Shown in pieces: positions 49,001-64,000 of a stretch of 64,000 bases of DNA. Location: positions 372,001 through 436,000 of the forward strand of contig NW_024881591.1 of NCBI RefSeq assembly GCF_019059575.1. Direction: 5' to 3'. This DNA comes from Amphibalanus amphitrite. Its lineage: Eukaryota > Arthropoda > Thecostraca > Balanomorpha > Balanidae. A program made the position numbers and the translations under genes. Positions within the stretch are counted from its first letter, which is position 1; each line of letters begins with the position of its first letter. The notes under the pieces were generated by a model that worked only from the letters and a program-made list of their open reading frames with translations, searched no databases and had not been told where the DNA came from.

Positions 49001-52000
49001 CTTAAGGGAACTTTCCACCCAAGTCAAGGCCCTGTCCTCACAACAGGCTACAGGTTGTGACCATGGTGCTGCCGTACAGAACCAAAGCACTGCACCTCAC
49101 ATGCAAACCCAGCCAAATCCTCAACAGCCGTCTAACAACTTGAACTATCGCACACTGATTCGCGAAGAGCTCAAAGAACAGAGAGAAAGGGAAAAACGTC
49201 AATCCTTTATCATTGTGAAGGGCTTGGCAGCCACCTCTCCTTCGGACTTCGTCAGTAAGTTTACAAAACTTGCAGATGACTGCTTGGGTTTGCAGGTTTC
49301 GACACCAGAGGTCTTCCAAATTGCAGGTCATGCTAACTTCTACAGGGTTCGGATCTCTGATGACCAGTCGCGAAAAGCCTTACTAGAGAAGGCAAAACAG
49401 CTGAGAGGTACCCAGTACGAACGAGTGTACATCAGTAGGGACCTGACCTATGCACAACGATCAGAACTCTTTCTGCGCCGCCAGGAGCGCAGACAGCAGC
49501 AGGCCCAGGCGGATGGCTCACTGAACCAAGGAAATGACCATGCGTTACAGGCCCCCAAACCTCCCTCACAGAGGCCTGCCCCTGCTGCTGCTCCCCCTGC
49601 TCAACCATCTGCTCCAGTGGGAGCGGAAAACTAACTTGTCTGCCTACATCCACAGTTTTAAGAATAGCCTTGGCCAATGTTAATGGACTTCCTTCGAAGG
49701 TCAAGCAACTCACTGAGTTCAGCGACCAGAGATTGCTTGATATTCTGTGCATTACCGAATCCCACCTTTTAAATCATATAGCTGATTCCTTTGTTCAGAT
49801 CCCAGGATTTACTCTTCTCAGAAATGATGTATGTGGCAATGTATTCAAGCATGGAGTCTGTGTGTATGTGCACAACAAACTAGCTGTTACCAATGTCAAC
49901 AGGCCGCTTCTTAACGTCATAACATTTTGCCTCTCAAATTTCAGTGTGTTTGTTGCAGTGGTCTATAGGCCTCCTTCAAACAATGAAGATGAAAATAACT
50001 CACTGCTGTCATATTTGTCAGATTTCTGTGCAGACAAGGAGGTGATAGTACTGGGCGATTTTAACCTGCCGAACCTGGATTGGAAAAGTGCTGATGCCCC
50101 TTCCAGTTGTGCAACAGTGGAACGCAATTTTCTCAACCTCTTCAACCTACTCGGTCTAACCCAGTGGATTAAGGAACCAACCTTTCCCAGGTCTGGAAAC
50201 ATCTTGGACCTGGTATTAACTACGGAACCTGACCGTCTTGGACACATTGAGATATGCCCTCACTTGCCAGGTTGCGACCACTGCCTAGCTGTATGTGATT
50301 ATGTGTTCGAGTCAGATGACATCTTAACTGTCTCTCACCCCCGACCTTACAGGAGAGCCTGGAGCAGGGGTCGCTTTGCCTTGATGCGCCAGCTGCTGAA
50401 AGATACGGACTGGGACTTCGAGTTTGCCTTCCGGGATTGTGATGAGTGTTTTGTCCAGTTTGTACGAGTCATTGCAGATCTGACTAATGAGTTTGTGCCA
50501 GAACAACCTCCACGTCTGAGGACCCGGCCGCAGTTCCAGACTAGACCACCGACGAGCCTTATACACCGCCGCCAGAGAGCATGGAATAACTATAAGGTTG
50601 TTAGACAGAAACTGGGAAGGAAAGCCCATGCTTCCGTGGAGGCGTATGGTGCCTTTGCTTCAATTAACAAAGAGTTAAGAATGTTCACTGTAACTTCACA
50701 ATGCCAGTATGAAAGAAACTTAATTGACAGGTCCAGACAAAACCCAAAACTTCTCCATTCTTATGTAAGGTCTAAGAAGGTTGGCTGTCCAGCAGTTGGC
50801 CCCTTAATGCTGAAGACTGGTGAAATGAGCGACGATGCCCAAGCCATGTCTGAAATGTTCGCCTCATCGTTTGTTTCTGTTTACTCTCCTAACAGCCCAA
50901 GGAACCCTGCTCCCCATCAGATGTTCAATGGAACGCTTAACAGTGTTGATTTCTCAACGGACGATGTCCTATCGGCACTGATGATGCTTGACCCCCATTC
51001 TGCCATGGGGCCCGACAGATTGCATCCACTGGTGCTGAAGTCTTGTGCTGCTGAGGTGGCATATCCCTTGCACTTGATCTTTCAGAAATCCCTGCAGGAA
51101 GGGAAGCTGCCAGCTCTCTGGAAAATGTCTATTGTAAAACCTATCTTTAAAAAGGGCCACAGATATGACCCTCTGAACTATCGGCCTATCAGCCTGACCT
51201 CGGTTGTCTGTAAGACTATGGAACGCTTGATATGTACTAAACTTAGAAACTACCTTGAAACTAACTTCCTACTAACTAGCAACCAATTCGGTTTCAGACC
51301 AGGCAGGTCAACAATGGACCAACTATTATTAGTATATAACACAGTCTCGAAGATGGTGGATGCTAGACATGTCGTAGATATAATATTTTTTGACTTTAGC
51401 AAGGCCTTTGATGTAGTTAACCATGAGATCATGCTCGTAAAACTGCGATCACTGGGACTGCAGGGTTGTCTGCTTGACTGGTTATCCTCCTTCCTACAGG
51501 GTAGGTTGATGCAGGTCTGTGTGAAGGACTGTCTCAGCAAACCCTGTGTAGTTAGTAGTGGTGTACCTCAGGGAAGTGTTTTGGGACCCCTCTTGTTCCT
51601 TGTGTATGTGAATAGTGTTGCCTCCCAACTGAAAAGTGACTATAAAATATTCGCTGATGACATTAAACTTTATGCCTGTGTGCCCTATGATCCATCCTCC
51701 TCCTCTCCATCCCTTGCTACACAGCAGATCCAGAAAGACATTGACACTCTACACTCAACGGCAGCATCATGGGGACTAAAGATGAACTCAAAGAAGTGTG
51801 TTGCTTTAAGGTTTAATGGCTCTAGTCCTAACATAGACCTACCGGGATACTTCCTTGATGGCCAGCAAATCCCTTTCTCTAAGAGTCATGTTGATCTTGG
51901 TGTGACTGTTGACTGTCGCCTGAGATTTCACGAACATGTACACACAATTGTTCAGAAGGCAGGTGGCCTTGCCCAGAGCTTGCTAAAATCTACGGTCTGT

Positions 52001-53237
52001 CGCTCACCTGACTTCATGATGTTTCTTTTAACCACACACATTCGACCCTTGATGGAATACTGTTCGTGTATCTGGAACATGGGCTATATCGAAGACTTGC
52101 GGCTCCTAGAGAATGTACAGCGTAGGTGGACTAAACGAGTTGATGGGCTTGCTAACAAGAGCTACTCTGACAGATTACGGTCACTTAACTTGTATTCAGT
52201 ACAGGGCAGGCTCCTTCGCTCAGACTTAATCCACTGCTGGAAGATATTTAATGGAAAATCCTGTATAGAGCCCATTGATGTGTTTAGTCGACCTCCGCAA
52301 ACACGAACACGAGGACACACACACAAAATATTTCCCGTTTTCACCAGGACTGACACTAGGAAGCGTTTCTTCTCAGTGCGATGCATGCCTGCTTGGAATG
52401 CTCTGCCTCTGGAGGCTGTCTCAGCCCCAAACCTAGCAAAGTTCAAGGAAATGCTCCATCTGCACTTGCACGACAGACTATTTGACTTTGTGTAAAAACT
52501 CTTCTACCTATATGCTGCTTATCGTTTGTCTTTTTATGTATCGTTTGTCTTTTTATGACTGTGTTGCTGTTTACCGTACCGTACTATTGTGTTCGTTACT
52601 TTGTGTTTAAGTGCCTTGTATTCATGCGTGTCACCTTGGAAGACGCTCAACTCCAGCCTTCGTACTTCATAATCTTCCCCAGACAAGAACTCAACTTTGG
52701 CTGGTGCGTCTAGGATTCAGGGTTCCTGTTCCTCATACCCACTTCTCACTTCCTTCCTGACTTCCTAAATGACACTGGGAACCCAACCAGGTGAGTATAC
52801 CAGGTGAGTATCTGCAAGTCTCCATGTTTAGAAGGTTGATAAATCTTTTTGTCATCATCTGAATGAAATAATAATCCTACAGCACAACAACTGTCAACAG
52901 TACTTCATGGGAGAGAGGCGATGAGTCCATGAAAGCAGAGTTATCTGTGCAGTTTGAGAGACAACACTAACAGAATATCAAGTTAAAGAGTTAACATGAC
53001 TTGGAATATTTTTAAGAGGTAATGACTGGCAATTATGTGAATAGCAATCTGATAATCTTAAATACTGCTCATCTCAACTGTTCATCTTATCTCAGTACCT
53101 ACCTGAAATGGAAGATATTTGTTGATTTTAATGCAAAATGGCTCCTCATCTTCTGCATCAAATATGGAAATTGTGTTTTCAGATTCTGCTCCACACAGCC
53201 TGCATATGTTGCTGTCAGCAAGGCCACTGGTTCCCAT
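40020..53237 (-). CDS. ZAD + AT-hook + 13 C2H2 zinc-finger protein, 17 exons, 855 aa
   Basis: Exons: 53103-53237, 47928-48063, 47333-47458, 46576-46785, 46146-46262, 45771-45879, 45393-45498, 44574-44780, 44052-44236, 43532-43692, 43041-43180, 42440-42641, 42123-42268, 41685-41804, 41210-41365, 40574-40735, 40020-40169. All GT-AG except a weak acceptor (TTCGAAG) before exon 2; 2568 nt in frame. An in-frame stop just upstream of MGTSGLAD supports the start. The ZAD (a zinc-binding dimerisation domain of arthropod transcription factors) is split: NICRLCG in exon 1 and RRICSPC in exon 2. Residues 117-126 ([10 protein letters not shown]) are an AT-hook. Thirteen CxxC...HxxxH fingers lie at about 260-640, with TGEK-type linkers only between some. 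The C-terminal 200 aa have no known domain. I infer a nuclear DNA-binding regulator; its targets are unknown. The 5-kb first intron holds a LINE. Confidence 0.93.
40944..41053. repeat. Foldback inverted repeat (110 bp) in the zinc-finger gene
   Basis: ATGCGAGAGCCTATTCAAAT at the left pairs with the inverse at the right end (ending ATAGGTTCTCGCAT). The arms are about 50 bases with few mismatches and the loop is about 10. It lies in the intron between exons 15 and 16 and is probably a small MITE. Confidence 0.8.
41412..41462 (-). pseudogene. Partial duplicate of zinc-finger gene exon 15
   Basis: The stretch encodes [16 protein letters not shown], as does the real exon at 41210-41365, then diverges. 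It sits about 50 bases upstream of the real exon. It lacks the rest of the exon and is not needed for the reading frame. Confidence 0.8.
42757..42877. repeat. (GAAT)n tetranucleotide microsatellite
   Basis: About 25 units of AATG with occasional A or C substitutions, in an intron of the zinc-finger gene. Confidence 0.95.
44761..45012. repeat. Five-copy 55-56-bp tandem repeat overlapping the acceptor of zinc-finger exon 8
   Basis: CCCTGTGGACAGGAGGGAGG occurs from 44779, 44834, 44890, 44946 and 45002 (the last with changes), each following CACACCCTCCACCAC. The first copy is the true acceptor and exon start (coding GVVEGVDS). Confidence 0.9.
48333..48416. repeat. Short tandem repeat of CGTCTGCA/CGTCTGCT
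   Basis: Eight-base units repeat about ten times just upstream of the retrotransposon ORF1. It may belong to the element's 5' region or to its insertion site. Confidence 0.8.
48618..49634 (+). CDS. Retrotransposon ORF1: PHD-finger RNA-binding-type protein, 338 aa
   Basis: The start is chosen at the ATG preceding a Gly/Arg-rich N-terminus ([16 protein letters not shown]). A PHD-like finger follows at about 38-90 ([17 protein letters not shown], then CMKC), then a coiled region rich in Glu/Arg and a Gln/Pro/Ala-rich tail. In CR1-like elements ORF1 binds the element RNA and accompanies it to the target. The stop at 49634 overlaps the open ORF2 frame. This is the only ORF1 in the window. Confidence 0.85.
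   Translation: MRNARGGRGRGSAGAGRRGRSASVNNAAASARGEESICGTCGDDVGNDPIGCDKCEHWVHGNEMCSGLPQDLIDAIMKYDGAGIQFVCMKCQVQHVSARGESPTSHTEPHLAETISHLYNQVKGICSALRELSTQVKALSSQQATGCDHGAAVQNQSTAPHMQTQPNPQQPSNNLNYRTLIREELKEQREREKRQSFIIVKGLAATSPSDFVSKFTKLADDCLGLQVSTPEVFQIAGHANFYRVRISDDQSRKALLEKAKQLRGTQYERVYISRDLTYAQRSELFLRRQERRQQQAQADGSLNQGNDHALQAPKPPSQRPAPAAAPPAQPSAPVGAEN
49670..52495 (+). CDS. Retrotransposon ORF2: AP-endonuclease and reverse transcriptase, about 941 aa
   Basis: The N-terminal third is an AP-type endonuclease that nicks target DNA ([41 protein letters not shown]). The middle is the reverse transcriptase ([39 protein letters not shown], and the catalytic FADD in place of the commoner YADD). No stop or frameshift interrupts it. 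No ATG lies near the N-terminus: the frame is open back into the end of ORF1, so translation may depend on a non-AUG start, reinitiation or frameshifting. The coordinate given is the TTG just before the conserved ANVNG. Confidence 0.92.
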   Translation: MANVNGLPSKVKQLTEFSDQRLLDILCITESHLLNHIADSFVQIPGFTLLRNDVCGNVFKHGVCVYVHNKLAVTNVNRPLLNVITFCLSNFSVFVAVVYRPPSNNEDENNSLLSYLSDFCADKEVIVLGDFNLPNLDWKSADAPSSCATVERNFLNLFNLLGLTQWIKEPTFPRSGNILDLVLTTEPDRLGHIEICPHLPGCDHCLAVCDYVFESDDILTVSHPRPYRRAWSRGRFALMRQLLKDTDWDFEFAFRDCDECFVQFVRVIADLTNEFVPEQPPRLRTRPQFQTRPPTSLIHRRQRAWNNYKVVRQKLGRKAHASVEAYGAFASINKELRMFTVTSQCQYERNLIDRSRQNPKLLHSYVRSKKVGCPAVGPLMLKTGEMSDDAQAMSEMFASSFVSVYSPNSPRNPAPHQMFNGTLNSVDFSTDDVLSALMMLDPHSAMGPDRLHPLVLKSCAAEVAYPLHLIFQKSLQEGKLPALWKMSIVKPIFKKGHRYDPLNYRPISLTSVVCKTMERLICTKLRNYLETNFLLTSNQFGFRPGRSTMDQLLLVYNTVSKMVDARHVVDIIFFDFSKAFDVVNHEIMLVKLRSLGLQGCLLDWLSSFLQGRLMQVCVKDCLSKPCVVSSGVPQGSVLGPLLFLVYVNSVASQLKSDYKIFADDIKLYACVPYDPSSSSPSLATQQIQKDIDTLHSTAASWGLKMNSKKCVALRFNGSSPNIDLPGYFLDGQQIPFSKSHVDLGVTVDCRLRFHEHVHTIVQKAGGLAQSLLKSTVCRSPDFMMFLLTTHIRPLMEYCSCIWNMGYIEDLRLLENVQRRWTKRVDGLANKSYSDRLRSLNLYSVQGRLLRSDLIHCWKIFNGKSCIEPIDVFSRPPQTRTRGHTHKIFPVFTRTDTRKRFFSVRCMPAWNALPLEAVSAPNLAKFKEMLHLHLHDRLFDFV
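52561..53102. other. Rest of the first intron of the zinc-finger gene
   Basis: Contains the uncertain 3' end of the retrotransposon and unique intron sequence up to the exon 1 donor at 53102. No other gene seen. Confidence 0.5.
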
Positions 53238-55909: not shown

Positions 55910-58900
55910 CTACACCTTCTGTGATAAGCCAGATATGTTTACATCGAATCCCACACTCCGGTAAAGAATCTCGAACAGGGCCCTGCAGGGCCCCGTGAAC
56001 TTTGTGTAGAAGACAGCGTGGGCGGCCGTCATTAGGGCCACGGTCTCCAACCTGGTGGCCGGCAGTTGGCAGACCATCAAACCGTCCACCGATAGTTCCT
56101 CACCTGCCTGACGAACCCCGTTTCTCGGATCCGCCAAGGTGCCAATGGTTGTTCCACAAACATAGGCAAGTAGAGCTAGCAGCTCGTCGTCTGCCGTGAA
56201 AAAGAATATTGCAGTCAGTTGGCATCAATGCATATCGTACAAATAAACGTAAAGAAAACCTAGGAGAGAAACAAGGAACCGCGTTCGTGCAGTAGCTGGC
56301 TATGCCACTACAGTATCCATGGAGACGATTCTTCGCTTCTTCCTGATTTCTTTTCACTCTCAAAATCGTAGTACGATGCGTAGTACGTTTACGTAGTACG
56401 ATACACTCTTACAACTAAACGTGCATAATTACAAAATAATTATACGTCGTTAAAATATTTCAGTGAAATAAGAAATTAGTACCCGATGTTCCGCTGTCAT
56501 GGTTAAGTATGGAATGCAAGTAGGTATCAAACTGCATGTAACTGTGGTATATTTGGAGACAATGAAGACAACCATGAATGGAGACAACCATGACTTTTCA
56601 ATATCACTAGAGTTAAACAACACTTTTTGACTAATAGCAAAACCAACGACGATTGGCTGTCCAAAGGTGAGATAGATAGATAGATAGATAGATAGATGTA
56701 TTCGAACAAGATCCATTATAAAACAATGGCTTTTCACTAGTTCACGTAAGCGAATTAAAACATTGTGGACACGGCGAAACAGACATACCAGCTGGCAGCT
56801 ACAATCACGCACATGATGAAGTCAGGTATACCCTACTGCGACTTAACAGCGCGTCTGACTGCAGAACGGAACCCGCACGTTCCGGGCTCCACACCGACAC
56901 TGTTCAGTAGCCCTACTCCTCGGTAGCACAGCCGTCTCCTCCCTGCCTCAGTTCGGATAGTCGGGAGCGTGTACAGGCTGGCCTGCCTCGTGTTATGGCT
57001 GTGGCGCTGATCAGTCCGCAGACCAATAGTCGCCATGATGCTTTCAGGCTGCCCTGAAACTATAACCCGCTCGACCGCACACACAGTGTGATATATCACA
57101 AGCTGTTCAGCAGTGAGCCACTGCAGTTGTTCCAGGGACTGAGATACATGGTCATATCGCCTCTTGCCCGTCACTACTCGAACGCAGAAGTTGACAAGTT
57201 TTTGTACACGTCGAAGCTGCGTCATGCCACACGAACCATACACTGACAAACAATACCGTAACACGGAAAGGACAAGTGCCTCGACAATGGATTTCAGTGT
57301 CACTCTTGGGATCACGTGACGTGCATGAGTCAGAGCAATAAGAATGCCCGTGCACTTTCTAGTTACATTGTCGATGTGCGTTTCATAGTTGAGATGGCGG
57401 TCAACGTAAACTCCCAGGTTCTTGGCGGCTCGCGACTCAGCAACAACAGTGCCACAAAAGTGAAGGGAGACTAAGGGCAGGTCGCGCAGCATCGCTGGTG
57501 TACCTAATACGACCATTTGTGTCTTAGCTGTGTTAAGCATCATGCCGTTAGCACAAAACCACTGATACATACGGTGTAAGGCGTTCTCCATACAGGCCAC
57601 CATTCGCTGCACGTCACGTTTCTTTCCGCTGACCAACAGCTGTGTATCGTCTGCATACTGGACAATTGTTACATCATCTGAGACACTGAGGCTGAGGTCG
57701 TTGGCATACAACATGTACATGACGCATGATAGCGCTCCGCCTTGAAAAACACCAATGTTATTTTCTCGTGAGCGCGACAGTACGTTCCGTCCTTTACCGT
57801 CACACAGCCTAACCTGCTGAGTGTGATCAGACAAATAACTGCTGAACCATTTCGTGTCAATGCCATACAGTGCAAGTTTTCGAAGTAAATTTTGATGTGG
57901 CACTACATCAAAACATTTGGACAAATCCAATAAGACCAAAATTGATATGTTGCCGTTTTCCATTGCGTGAAGAACCCTATCAGTTATTACGTGAAGCGCG
58001 GTTTCTGTAGACCGCTGCTTCCTGTAACCGTGTTGGGCATCAGCAAGAAGATGATTTTCTTCTAAGTACGTTGTTAATTGGGTCTGAACAGTGCGTTCTA
58101 CGAGCTTCATAATAGCCGGAAGAATAGAAATGGGGCGTGTATCGGACGGCTTGGTTGTAACCTTTCCTTTAGGGATAGGTGTCACCAGCGCATGTTTCCA
58201 CGCTCGTGGGACCACACCAGAGATCAAACTGAAGTTGACAACATCTAGTAACGCATGTCTTACGCCGTGGAAAAACTTCTGCAACATGCTCACACTAATG
58301 CCATCGTCTCCAGTTGAATTGGACGGTTTCATAGATAGAAGCACGGTATATAGCGTGTCTGCGTCCACCGTTTCCACACAAAGGTACAACATGTTGTCCC
58401 ACCCGTCGTTAAAGTGCCACCTTTTTACGGTTTTCGGTTTAAAATGGTTTTCAGTAGACCTGACCCACCTATGACCTACCCTGAAGTCTGTTTCCCGAAA
58501 TTCGTCCTAGTTTTCGAGATATCCGCATTCGAACTTCACATTGATGCCATCACAAAAAGTGTGGGAGATGGGATTCTAACATGGTAATGTTACATTCCCA
58601 TATTCCACACATTTGTGATGGCTTTAATCTGAAGTCCAATTGCGGATATCTTGAAAACTAGGCCGAATTTCGGGAAACAGACTTCAGGGTAGGTCATAGG
58701 TGGGTTAGGTCTAGTGAAAACCGTTTTGTGTAAAAAAGGTGGCAGTCTTCCTTTAAGCCAAAAAAAAAAAAATCATCAAGAAAATAAACAGTTGTCCTGC
58801 CCTCTGCTATTAATGTATTACGCCATTGGGATATGTGAAACGTCATTTCTCCATCGTGCAGGAAGAAGCATGCGTGGGAAATACCTTCCTACACTTGGTC

Positions 58901-60513: not shown

Positions 60514-60875
60514 TGTGTACCTACTACCTACCTGTACTTACTTGACAACGGCTCCTTTATTCACGTTCTTAAACGCCACACGTGCATGGCGTAATACGAG
60601 CTATATGAGCTCCTGAGCTCGAAGCCGTATCAGTGTTTGTACATCAATAAACCGTATCTCTCTCTCTCTCTCTCCCCCCATTCAGGAAAATCTCAGAAAA
60701 TCTCAATCTCCATGTCGTTTCCTTTACCTTGGGAAGTCCACATTTACTTCGTGCATTTACTTGAGTAACTTGAATCCCTAAAATGTCCCTTGAACCGCTT
60801 GAACCTTGCGCTTGGAATAGTTCAAGAAATAATATTCATGAATCGAGTCATGCCTGATAAAAACAAGTGTTCGGA
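60514..60875. other. Non-coding gap between the inverted-terminus tract and the foldback element
   Basis: A short CT repeat lies at about 60657-60675. No gene seen. Confidence 0.5.
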
Positions 60876-61110
60876 TTCCATGACGGTTTTTCGTCCAGCA
60901 GATTTTCGTCGGACAATTTTTCGTCCGCAGATTTTCGTCCGACTTTTTTTCGTCTCGCATTTTTTCGTCTGTACATTTTTTCGTCTGTGCATTTTTTCGT
61001 CTGTACATTTTTTCGTCTGTACATTTTTTCGTCCGGACATTTTTTCGTTCGTATATTTTTTCGTCTGTGCGTTTTTTCGTCCGGACATTTTTTCGTCTAC
61101 AATTTTAACG

Positions 61111-61265
61111 TAACCTAACCTAACCTAACCTAACCTAACCTAACCTAACCTAACCTTTAACCTAACCTAACATTTAACCTAACCTAGCCTAACCTAACCT
61201 AACCTAACCTAACCTAACCTAACCTAACCTAACCTAACCTAACCTAACCTAACCTAACCTTACCT
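61111..61265. repeat. Interstitial telomere-like repeat (CCTAA)n / (TTAGG)n
   Basis: About 29 units of CCTAA with a few insertions (CTTTAA, ATTTAA, one CCTAG). TTAGG is the common arthropod telomere repeat. It sits in the loop of the foldback element and is flanked by unique sequence and a gene on the right, so it is not a chromosome end. Confidence 0.95.
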
Positions 61266-61322
61266 ACTGATGTTTGCCTACCGGGGGATAAGGAAAAAGT
61301 TACTTGCATGAATAGATTGCAA

Positions 61323-61435
61323 GCAATGGTAAGTCAAATATTTTTAGGTTAAGTGGTTATGCATCAGGCTTCAGGCCTTCGGCCTGAAGCCAGATACACA
61401 ACCACTTAACCTAAAAATATTTGACTTACCATTGC
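61323..61435. repeat. Near-perfect 113-bp hairpin inside the foldback element
   Basis: GCAATGGTAAGTCAAATATT at the left pairs with the right end, and the arms of about 53 bases meet at GGCCTTCGGCC. Only a few bases mismatch. A second short palindrome-like stretch (CTTCGGC) follows. Confidence 0.9.
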
Positions 61436-61818
61436 CTGTAATCTCTCCTAAGTCCTAAGGCATTGCCTTCGGCACTGCACTGCTTCGCCCCGAGTATTAT
61501 TATGACGTCATTTGCCTCCACAGTTGAATAGCATTGTAGTATGTTTTCACTCAACCTTGGGTGAACAGACGTAAAATTTATTGAACGAAAAAATGTCCGG
61601 ACGAAAATATGTACAGACGAAAAAATATACGAACGAAAAAATGTCCGGACGAAAAAATGTACAGACGAAAAAATGTACAGACGAAAAAATGCACAGACGA
61701 AAAAATGTACAGACGAAAAAAATGCGAGACGAAAAAAAGTCGGACGAAAATCTGCGGACGAAAAACTGTCCGACGAAAAAATGTCAGACGAAATTTTGTC
61801 CGGACACGAGTGTTCGGA

Positions 61819-62271: not shown

Positions 62272-63864
62272 ATGGAACCCATTCTGAATGGCATCTCATC
62301 TCCAGATGCTGAAGTTGAGGCTAAGGTAAAAAGACCAATTTTCAGCCCATAGACGAAGGATATAAAGAAAAGTCTCTTTCTCCAATGCTTTGTAATGTTT
62401 ATTCACTGCAAAATGAAAAGGTTAATGAGAATGATAGTCGGATAATTTATGAGTTGGGGACGGGGGTTGGGGAATAGGTAGGTATTTTTCTTTAGTAGGT
62501 AGGTATCTAGCCGTTTGCCCCATGATCTTCATATCAATGGTTGATATATATCTGTAAATGGCTCATTTGGTGATCAGATCTCGTTTTTATCCATCAAATT
62601 TGTTTCAGCCACTGAACCTGGTGACTCCAAGTATTCCCACCAAGACACCAGTGTCCCTGCTCCAGGAACTGGCTGCCAAACAGTGCATCACACCCAAGTA
62701 TGACCTTCTGCAGGTGAGCTGAACTACTGGTTACTGGCTGAGCTTAATGCTGTTTTATACTTCCTCCTCACATTTATGGTGTCATGGGAGTCACCATCCC
62801 TCTAAGACTTTCTGACCAGGATGTACACCAGTCTTTGAATATGCTAACTGCTAAGGACAATGTTGGACTGACCCACTCACATACAAGATGCCTTTCCACT
62901 TGCTGAACCTCACTCCAGTAGGCAAAGGGTGTAGAAATGTGTGCATGTGATCTGAAAGTCCCCCCCCCCCACATGTGTTGAATACATTTCTCTGTGGCAC
63001 TGATCAAATATTCATGGTCAGTGGGACATATTGCACCCTTCCACTCCCTTCCTGAAGGAAAAAGGCAGTCCTGAGTGCTAATGGTTTAATAATTGTGTCT
63101 GATACTCTTCAGTATCTGATGCCAGCAGGGTCTGACACCTTGCTTGCATAAGTTCATCCTGTTAGGCTTGCATGGCATGCTGTGTGGCCTGATATTCCAT
63201 CCTCTGCTGTCTGGCCCCCACTGATACAATGCACCATCTTTTGTGATGTGATTCAGGTGGTGGTGTGATAACTGATATCCAACTCTCCTCTCTCCCCTGC
63301 CTGCAGAGGCTGCTCTCCAATGTCTTTACAGGTGACACTGACAAACCATCCACACATCCCCACAGGTATGAGGTAGATGTCCCTGTCCTTTGTGCTGTGA
63401 CAGTGCTCTGATACTGCACTGTACCTGCCCCTCCCCCCCCCCCCCAAGATAGTCCCGTGGTCTGACACTCCATCCTCCCCTGCCACTCCCCTCACAGGTA
63501 GAGGGCGCCGTCCATGAGCCGACGTTCCTTTACCGCGCCACGGTCGGAGAGTTCGTGGCCAGCGGCCAGGGCCAGAGCAAGAAGAAGGCCAAGCACATGG
63601 CGGCGCGTGCCGTGCTGGACCAGCTGCTGGGTCAGCAGGCGGCCACGCCGCTGGTGCCGTCGGCGCGGCCGGCGGCGCTGGCCGAGCTGCCGCTGCTGCC
63701 CTGCGAGGACGACGCGGCCGGTAACCCGGTGGGCCGGCTGCAGGAGCTGTGCATGTCGCGCCGCTGGCCGCCGCCCACCTACGAGCTGGTGCACGAGGAG
63801 GGCCAGCCGCACGAGAGGACGTTCACCATCGCCTGCTGCATCGGCACCAAGGCCAGGGAGATCG
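62272..63864 (+). CDS. loqs: Loquacious/TARBP2-like double-stranded RNA-binding protein, first three exons (partial)
   Basis: Exons 62272-62325, 62609-62713 and 63498-63864 join in frame (phases 0, 0) and give 175 aa plus one base; the gene continues off the right edge. dsRBD1 runs from KTPVSLLQELAAKQCITPKY through GAVHEPTFLYRATVGEFVA to SKKKAKHMAARAVLDQL (about 28-93), with the KKxAK helix that grips the RNA. A Pro/Ala-rich linker follows, then the start of dsRBD2 (NPVGRLQELCMSRRWPPPTY, then HERTFTIACCIG). Fly Loqs and vertebrate TARBP2/PACT partner Dicer in making miRNAs and siRNAs. LQELCMSRRWPPP closely resembles Loqs. R2D2 is the less likely alternative. The third dsRBD cannot be seen. 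Exon 3 is strongly GC-rich compared with exons 1-2. Confidence 0.9.
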
Positions 63865-64000
63865 GTACGGAAAGGCCGGGACGTACCTACTGTGCAGGGA
63901 CGGGTGGGTCAGGAAATACGGACGGAGTATTGTCGTCGCTTTGGACTTTGCAGTAGCAGTCGATTTTCTGGAATATTCTATTATACAGCTATTTCTTCCG
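63865..64000. other. Start of intron 3 of the Loquacious-like gene
   Basis: It begins at a GTACGG donor. No further exon is visible before the window ends. Confidence 0.6.

Follow-up and report, generated by a model that had tools for sequence, protein, structure and literature searches.

The usual explanation for interstitial telomere-motif repeats is chromosome fusion or the repair of breaks. Foldback transposons are usually viewed as elements with fixed ends and a changing loop. Helentrons are not known to generate a target-site duplication when they insert. The closest described systems are the fly FB elements and Tetris of Drosophila virilis, which possess long inverted arms of tandem repeats around a non-coding middle; for Tetris, duplications of 8–10 bp and no autonomous copy are reported (PMC4079207). 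Mutator-like elements, including Rehavkus, generate duplications of 8–11 bp and carry inverted repeats of very variable length, and Rehavkus itself (9-bp duplications, PHD finger) contains a minisatellite (PMC6446971). Helentron-type non-autonomous elements (HINEs), as described for oyster Cg_HINE, bring together a microsatellite, tandem repeats, and a palindrome in one element (PMC7492417). In penaeid shrimp, abundant AACCT arrays occur and transposable elements are named as carriers of the expansion of simple repeats, with no foldback or hairpin core described in the excerpts of these papers (PMC3124438, PMC7878876).

The window (the whole 64,000-nucleotide stretch of Amphibalanus amphitrite DNA that was analysed) contains a complete, non-autonomous foldback element of 935 bp at 60874–61808 on the forward strand, the ends of which were defined from 40 distinct insertion sites and which we assign to family A. 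Repeat and inverted-repeat searches place its left arm, composed of units of 14–16 bp of the type CATTTTTTCGTCTGTA, at 60887–61098 (+ strand); the right arm, at 61585–61798 (− strand), is the left arm inverted, and the two mirror each other over 137 bp at 98% and a further 77 bp at 92%. Between the arms lies a (TAACC)n array of 161 bp (61106–61266, + strand; TRF score 258), the minus strand of which reads TTAGG, the arthropod telomere motif according to PMC3124438. This is followed by a long hairpin at 61314–61444 (+ strand), recognised as an inverted repeat and by folding, with 64-bp arms at 92% identity, 3 nt between them, the apex GGCCTTCGGCC, and TTAGGTTAA and TTAACCTAA within the stem. 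Comparison with other copies of this core delimits a 3′ part (61445–61520, + strand) that holds a second, small GCCTTCGGC hairpin and the motif GACGTCA. When 61262–61520 was folded as DNA, the result was far more stable than expected (z = −13.1), with 0 of 200 shuffles as good.

Aligned copies start with GATTCC and end with GGACACG, which leaves an 8-bp target-site duplication, AGTGTTCG, on either side of the window element (60866–60873 and 61809–61816). The initial annotation had proposed a foldback-type mobile element, and this is confirmed: the structure is real and dozens of copies carry target-site duplications. The mirrored arms and the CCTAA array were recovered as it had described them. 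A separate hairpin is also present, although with the extent given above and not the 113 bp claimed; likewise, the flanking direct repeat is a genuine duplication, but one of 8 bp here (and mostly 8–9 bp elsewhere), not 10 bp. The word AGTGTTCGGA occurs in the window only at 60866 and 61809, and the claimed 10-bp repeat comprises the 8-bp duplication plus, on one side, the first two bases of the element and, on the other, a chance match. Within the window, neither the arm unit (16 bases, at most 3 mismatches) nor the TAACC array (14 bases, at most 1 mismatch) has a second location. Frames within the element are repeat-derived only (100–143 aa, stop to stop); Pfam searches of them returned no transposase and one histone-like match below the cutoff, and the single Rfam match, to an miRNA family, lies below the gathering score. 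An arm 26-mer and a hairpin-apex 27-mer each gave 0 matches in the viral_contigs collection, and the whole element had no match in the phage collection searched.

Family A thus resembles FB-type foldbacks in its long inverted arms of short tandem repeats and in its dispersed copies with short duplications; it differs from FB and Tetris, compared by description, in a loop with a telomere-motif array plus a long hairpin, both common to elements with other arms. The length of its duplications falls within the 8–11-bp range of Mutator-like elements as given in PMC6446971, and like Rehavkus it has a minisatellite; no transposase was seen in the family-A sequence read. Unlike Helentrons and HINEs, it duplicates its target site and bears long inverted arms, and its palindrome, of about 130 nt, is internal. 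Among the literature matches listed, no title or abstract opening mentions a foldback with a TTAGG loop. The family is probably a foldback DNA transposon that is young and non-autonomous and whose modular core plants interstitial telomere-motif tracts.

The evidence for mobility comes from the home genome (807.55 Mb). A first look gave 2118 candidates, of which 40 were scored; all were long matches (83–100%), the window copy among them. Exact left ends (22 bases) occur at 63 places and exact right ends (21 bases) at 68, against 0 for either reversed-pattern control. A set of 34 copies defined by both ends represents 30 distinct sites; all 34 end in GACACG and 32 begin with GATTCC, the exceptions being L029 and L030, one site present at two places on a contig, which begin with GCGCTC and lack a duplication. 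A stricter end rule, which leaves out L029 and L030, yielded 43 complete end pairs, three of them second copies, and hence 40 distinct sites; copies for which the sequence read lacked one end (L024, L034, L035, and L037 among them) were not counted. Perfect duplications flank the element at 37 of these 40 sites: 8 bp at 19, 9 bp at 17, and 10 bp at one. The three sites lacking one are L009, L028, and L043, with L028 off by a single base of eight. Divergence from the majority sequence is low across the 34 copies (0.24%–1.65%, gaps ignored), and the spread of family A was therefore recent. The same insertion is found on two contigs in several cases (L015/L019, L016/L017, L044/L045, L034/L035, and L067/L068), the assembly probably keeping some haplotypes apart.

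In the majority sequences, the middle ~170 bp of the left and right arms are nearly identical, whereas the outer 40 bp differ; this poor match between termini is unusual in a cut-and-paste element. A test for gene conversion between the two arms of one copy detected none, the mean left–right distance being 0.1085 within copies (33 comparisons, the unparsed L038 dropped) and 0.1081 between copies (1056). The loop of L052 carries an extra module which, by eye, is also present in another family, D, and loops therefore seem to exchange parts. By eye, L060, a family-A copy, appears to hold the inserted end of a family-C element.

Pairs of ends, obtained by subtracting the places of exact ends, span from about 0.5 to 25.8 kb, and the long copies were read in stretches in a search for an autonomous partner (L047, L048/L037, L049/L034/L035, L070, L059/L071, L072, L073, and several others). 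Where read, the additional sequence resembles foreign elements nested within the same 0.85-kb element. Neither a transposase nor an autonomous copy turned up in these stretches, which cover the longest copies (C298, C912, C5, and C138) only outside their middles. The candidates on C314 (8.4 kb), C298 and C912 (11.9 and 12.7 kb), and C1206 (4.7 kb) look, in the stretches read, like insertions of other elements into a family-A copy and were set aside as autonomous candidates. Inserts in the copies that were followed include, besides a reverse-transcriptase element, one bordered by TTAA, and one insert in the left arm of a long copy is bordered, by eye, by the 8-base repeat CGGACATT. At L048 (C314:374101–380000) and L037, a family-A copy is split by a large element that, by eye, is bordered by TTAA and has ends of the type AGG.ATTATCAGGGTTT; no clear transposase lies among the frames of the first 5.9 kb.

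The telomere-motif array is retained in 34 of 34 copies, and every complete copy read carries a CCTAA array. In all 34 aligned copies, the array lies inside the element and not at an insertion junction outside a mobile element, where an interstitial telomere made by telomerase repair would be expected to lie. The length of the array varies: there are 7–28 CCTAA words per element, around two of which lie outside the array. In compressed form, the units mostly run from TAACG through TAACC to TTACC, interspersed with other variants, and L011 contains 17 TAACG units in a run; parsing failed for L038 and started too early for L022. Telomerase is not expected to copy TAACG. The array looks like a slipping microsatellite, and because variant units form blocks and near-identical copies differ in length, lengthening and shortening would occur through replication slippage rather than telomerase.

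The array and hairpin are not confined to family A. A 30-base word from the core occurs exactly at 642 places in the genome (control, 0), making the core roughly ten times as numerous as family-A ends; the window copy, in which a 7-base insertion splits the word, is not among them. The 3′ ends of arrays with at least six TAACC units were found by pattern at 292 places (control, 1), the first 100 of which were listed, and 25 of these 100 lie within copies with family-A ends. Thirty-eight of the other 75 were examined. Among 18 picked by hand, the hairpin core accompanies 16, a count that includes three family-F hairpins (67% similar), the half hairpin of L081, the apex-less L082, and four scored by eye; one array (L084) has only the spacer and one (L087) has nothing. 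A systematic sample of 20, drawn from the 57 that remained by taking one in three and adding the final entry, gave 12 with the core, two with the spacer only, three degenerate TAACC tracts on contig C22, and three with nothing. An independent count was limited to contigs C1–C63, on which both lists are complete. Here, 24 of 41 arrays (at least six TAACC units) have the exact core word 80–288 bases downstream on the same strand, as opposed to 0 of 41 on the opposite strand and 0 of 41 upstream. Nine of the 17 arrays without the exact word are on C22. Conversely, a listed array lies upstream of only 24 of the 99 core words on these contigs, and therefore most cores come with an array that is shorter or eroded, or with none at all. 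On C22, TAACC tracts without the exact core word were noted near 339–346 kb and 818–824 kb; three were read and are degenerate, and these tracts are possibly old telomere or satellite DNA.

Elements carrying the core include families A, B, C, and D, whose arms share no match at E 0.01 (14 loci of 1251 bases). The arm units are, for example, GGCCAGGGTTCATAATGTCCAGGGCACGATGTGTCCAGTGTTC in B, of the GTGTAAATCACACC type in C, and AAATGTCAATTTGCCG in D. Against A, the spacer is 80%–90% identical in B, C, and D and the hairpin 74%–99% identical where aligned, and the core 3′ part reaches 93%–100% in B and C. Read by eye, families A, B, and C hold the core at a matching position and in one orientation between their arms, and the loop of B consists of little besides the core. 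Direct repeats were found near the ends of two family-B copies (11 and 9 bp) and one family-F copy (8 bp), with flank words giving the candidate duplications GGCCGAAATGG and CCTGGGCGA for B and ATAAGCCC for the single F copy; two family-C copies showed no duplication. In the single family-D copy for which a wide stretch was read, the units are directly oriented, and therefore not every carrier of the core is a foldback. Family F (L083, L085, and L086) has a related core of like layout, in which a TAACC array bearing a TTACC interruption is followed by a hairpin whose stem exceeds 50 bp; L085 is flanked by long inverted repeats. A tRNA-like stretch on the 3′ side of family C, noted by eye at L075, L076, L077, L079, and L080, was not supported, ARAGORN returning 0 tRNAs in all five loci.

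The stem is long in most core variants folded, with single unpaired changes in L113, L121, and C132, a stem mostly lost in the family-D copy on C16, and a poor fold in the decayed core on C77 near family F. Pairs were counted on five variants (A, C, D from C192, L114 with a core like that of B, and L124, the last two read for the core only), a small and related set that leaves out the broken C16 copy and takes its structure from one of the five sequences. In these, 99% of cells are paired, three of 60 pairs are changed on both sides, and 52 pairs are invariant and hence uninformative. The paired fraction, the cells changed on both sides, and the covariation score lie above all 500 shuffles, whereas the number of doubly changed pairs (reached by 58 of 500 shuffles) and of pair types (433 of 500) is not outstanding. 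The stem of family F, 67% similar, is almost perfectly paired and has the same GGCCTTCGGCC apex, and all six variants aligned retain TTAGGTTAA and TTAACCTAA unchanged within the stem. Either selection on structure or correction between palindrome arms could keep the pairing. A more speculative, and on balance improbable, reading is that the core is a functional module passing between unrelated transposon families and selected as a structure, with TTAGGTTAA/TTAACCTAA and a UUCG-type apex kept while the stem sequence changes, as if recognised by telomerase, by proteins that bind telomeres, or by an enzyme acting on RNA or single strands; the carrier transposons would gain, and interstitial repeats would be the footprint.

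Under the explanation we favour, family-A ends and minisatellite arms would be moved by a transposase supplied from elsewhere, probably Mutator-like and acting in trans, that cuts the target with the 8–9-bp stagger seen in the duplications. The loop would be a modular core of TAACC microsatellite, spacer, and hairpin of roughly 130 nt; elements with unlike arms share it, presumably because it is kept or exchanged through arm replacement or recombination rather than inserted separately. Every transposition of an array-bearing core element would then plant an interstitial telomere-motif tract. Since many of the repeats have a fixed position within a core common to several mobile elements, transposition is the likelier source of many, though not all, of the interstitial telomere-motif tracts of this genome. 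The earlier idea that such an element spreads these repeats is thus supported, with the carrier being the array-plus-hairpin core and not the foldback family alone. A core that outlives its carrier arms would reverse the usual view of foldbacks and provide a defined object on which function can be probed. Against this explanation stand the terminal mismatch, the lack of a transposase where long copies were read, the absence of perfect duplications at three of 40 sites, at L029/L030, and in the two family-C copies, the direct repeats of family D, the 17 of 41 arrays lacking the core word, the few core words with an array upstream, and the loss of most of the C16 stem.

The numerical excess of 642 core words over 63–68 family-A ends would also be expected if the core were itself a mobile element, or marked a hot spot, and had entered the loops of several independent foldbacks. 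The core at C110 fits this, as its left side differs and the sequence read there shows no left minisatellite arm; however, the fixed place and orientation in A, B, and C, and the near absence of other loop sequence in B, speak against it, and no duplication around the core was noticed in unsystematic reading. We therefore consider independent mobility of the core doubtful. Capture of telomere DNA, namely array and subtelomeric sequence, once from a chromosome end followed by amplification is similarly rather unlikely. The motif is that of arthropod telomeres as given in PMC3124438, and the array adjoins unique sequence, as it would at a subtelomere junction. On the other hand, the blocks of variant units fit slippage; of the 100 array ends listed, none lies within 9 kb of the start of its contig, the end that was checked; and use of TTAGG at the chromosome ends of this species is an assumption. 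The parts list shared with oyster Cg_HINE (PMC7492417) invites a HINE reading, which is very improbable for family A and is contradicted by perfect 8–10-bp duplications at 37 of 40 sites and by the long inverted arms; family D could still fit it. Hairpins and tandem repeats pose difficulties for assembly, yet 40 distinct sites share their ends while differing in their duplications, and single insertions were recovered on two contigs at several loci (L015/L019, L016/L017, and L044/L045); these results contradict an assembly artefact or a chance palindrome and leave it a negligible probability.

Elsewhere in the window, a second palindrome (58441–58727; 116-bp arms at 91%, 55 nt apart) adjoins a reverse-transcriptase frame at 56833–58506, and at 49538–52495 lies a LINE-like frame (985 aa) that matches endonuclease and reverse transcriptase. 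The family-A element itself ends about 460 bp upstream of the putative start codon of a gene for a double-stranded-RNA-binding protein. This gene has a dsrm match (E 1.3e-19) at 63453–63956; its first exons (62272–62325 and 62609 onward) and their link to the dsrm match were read by eye.
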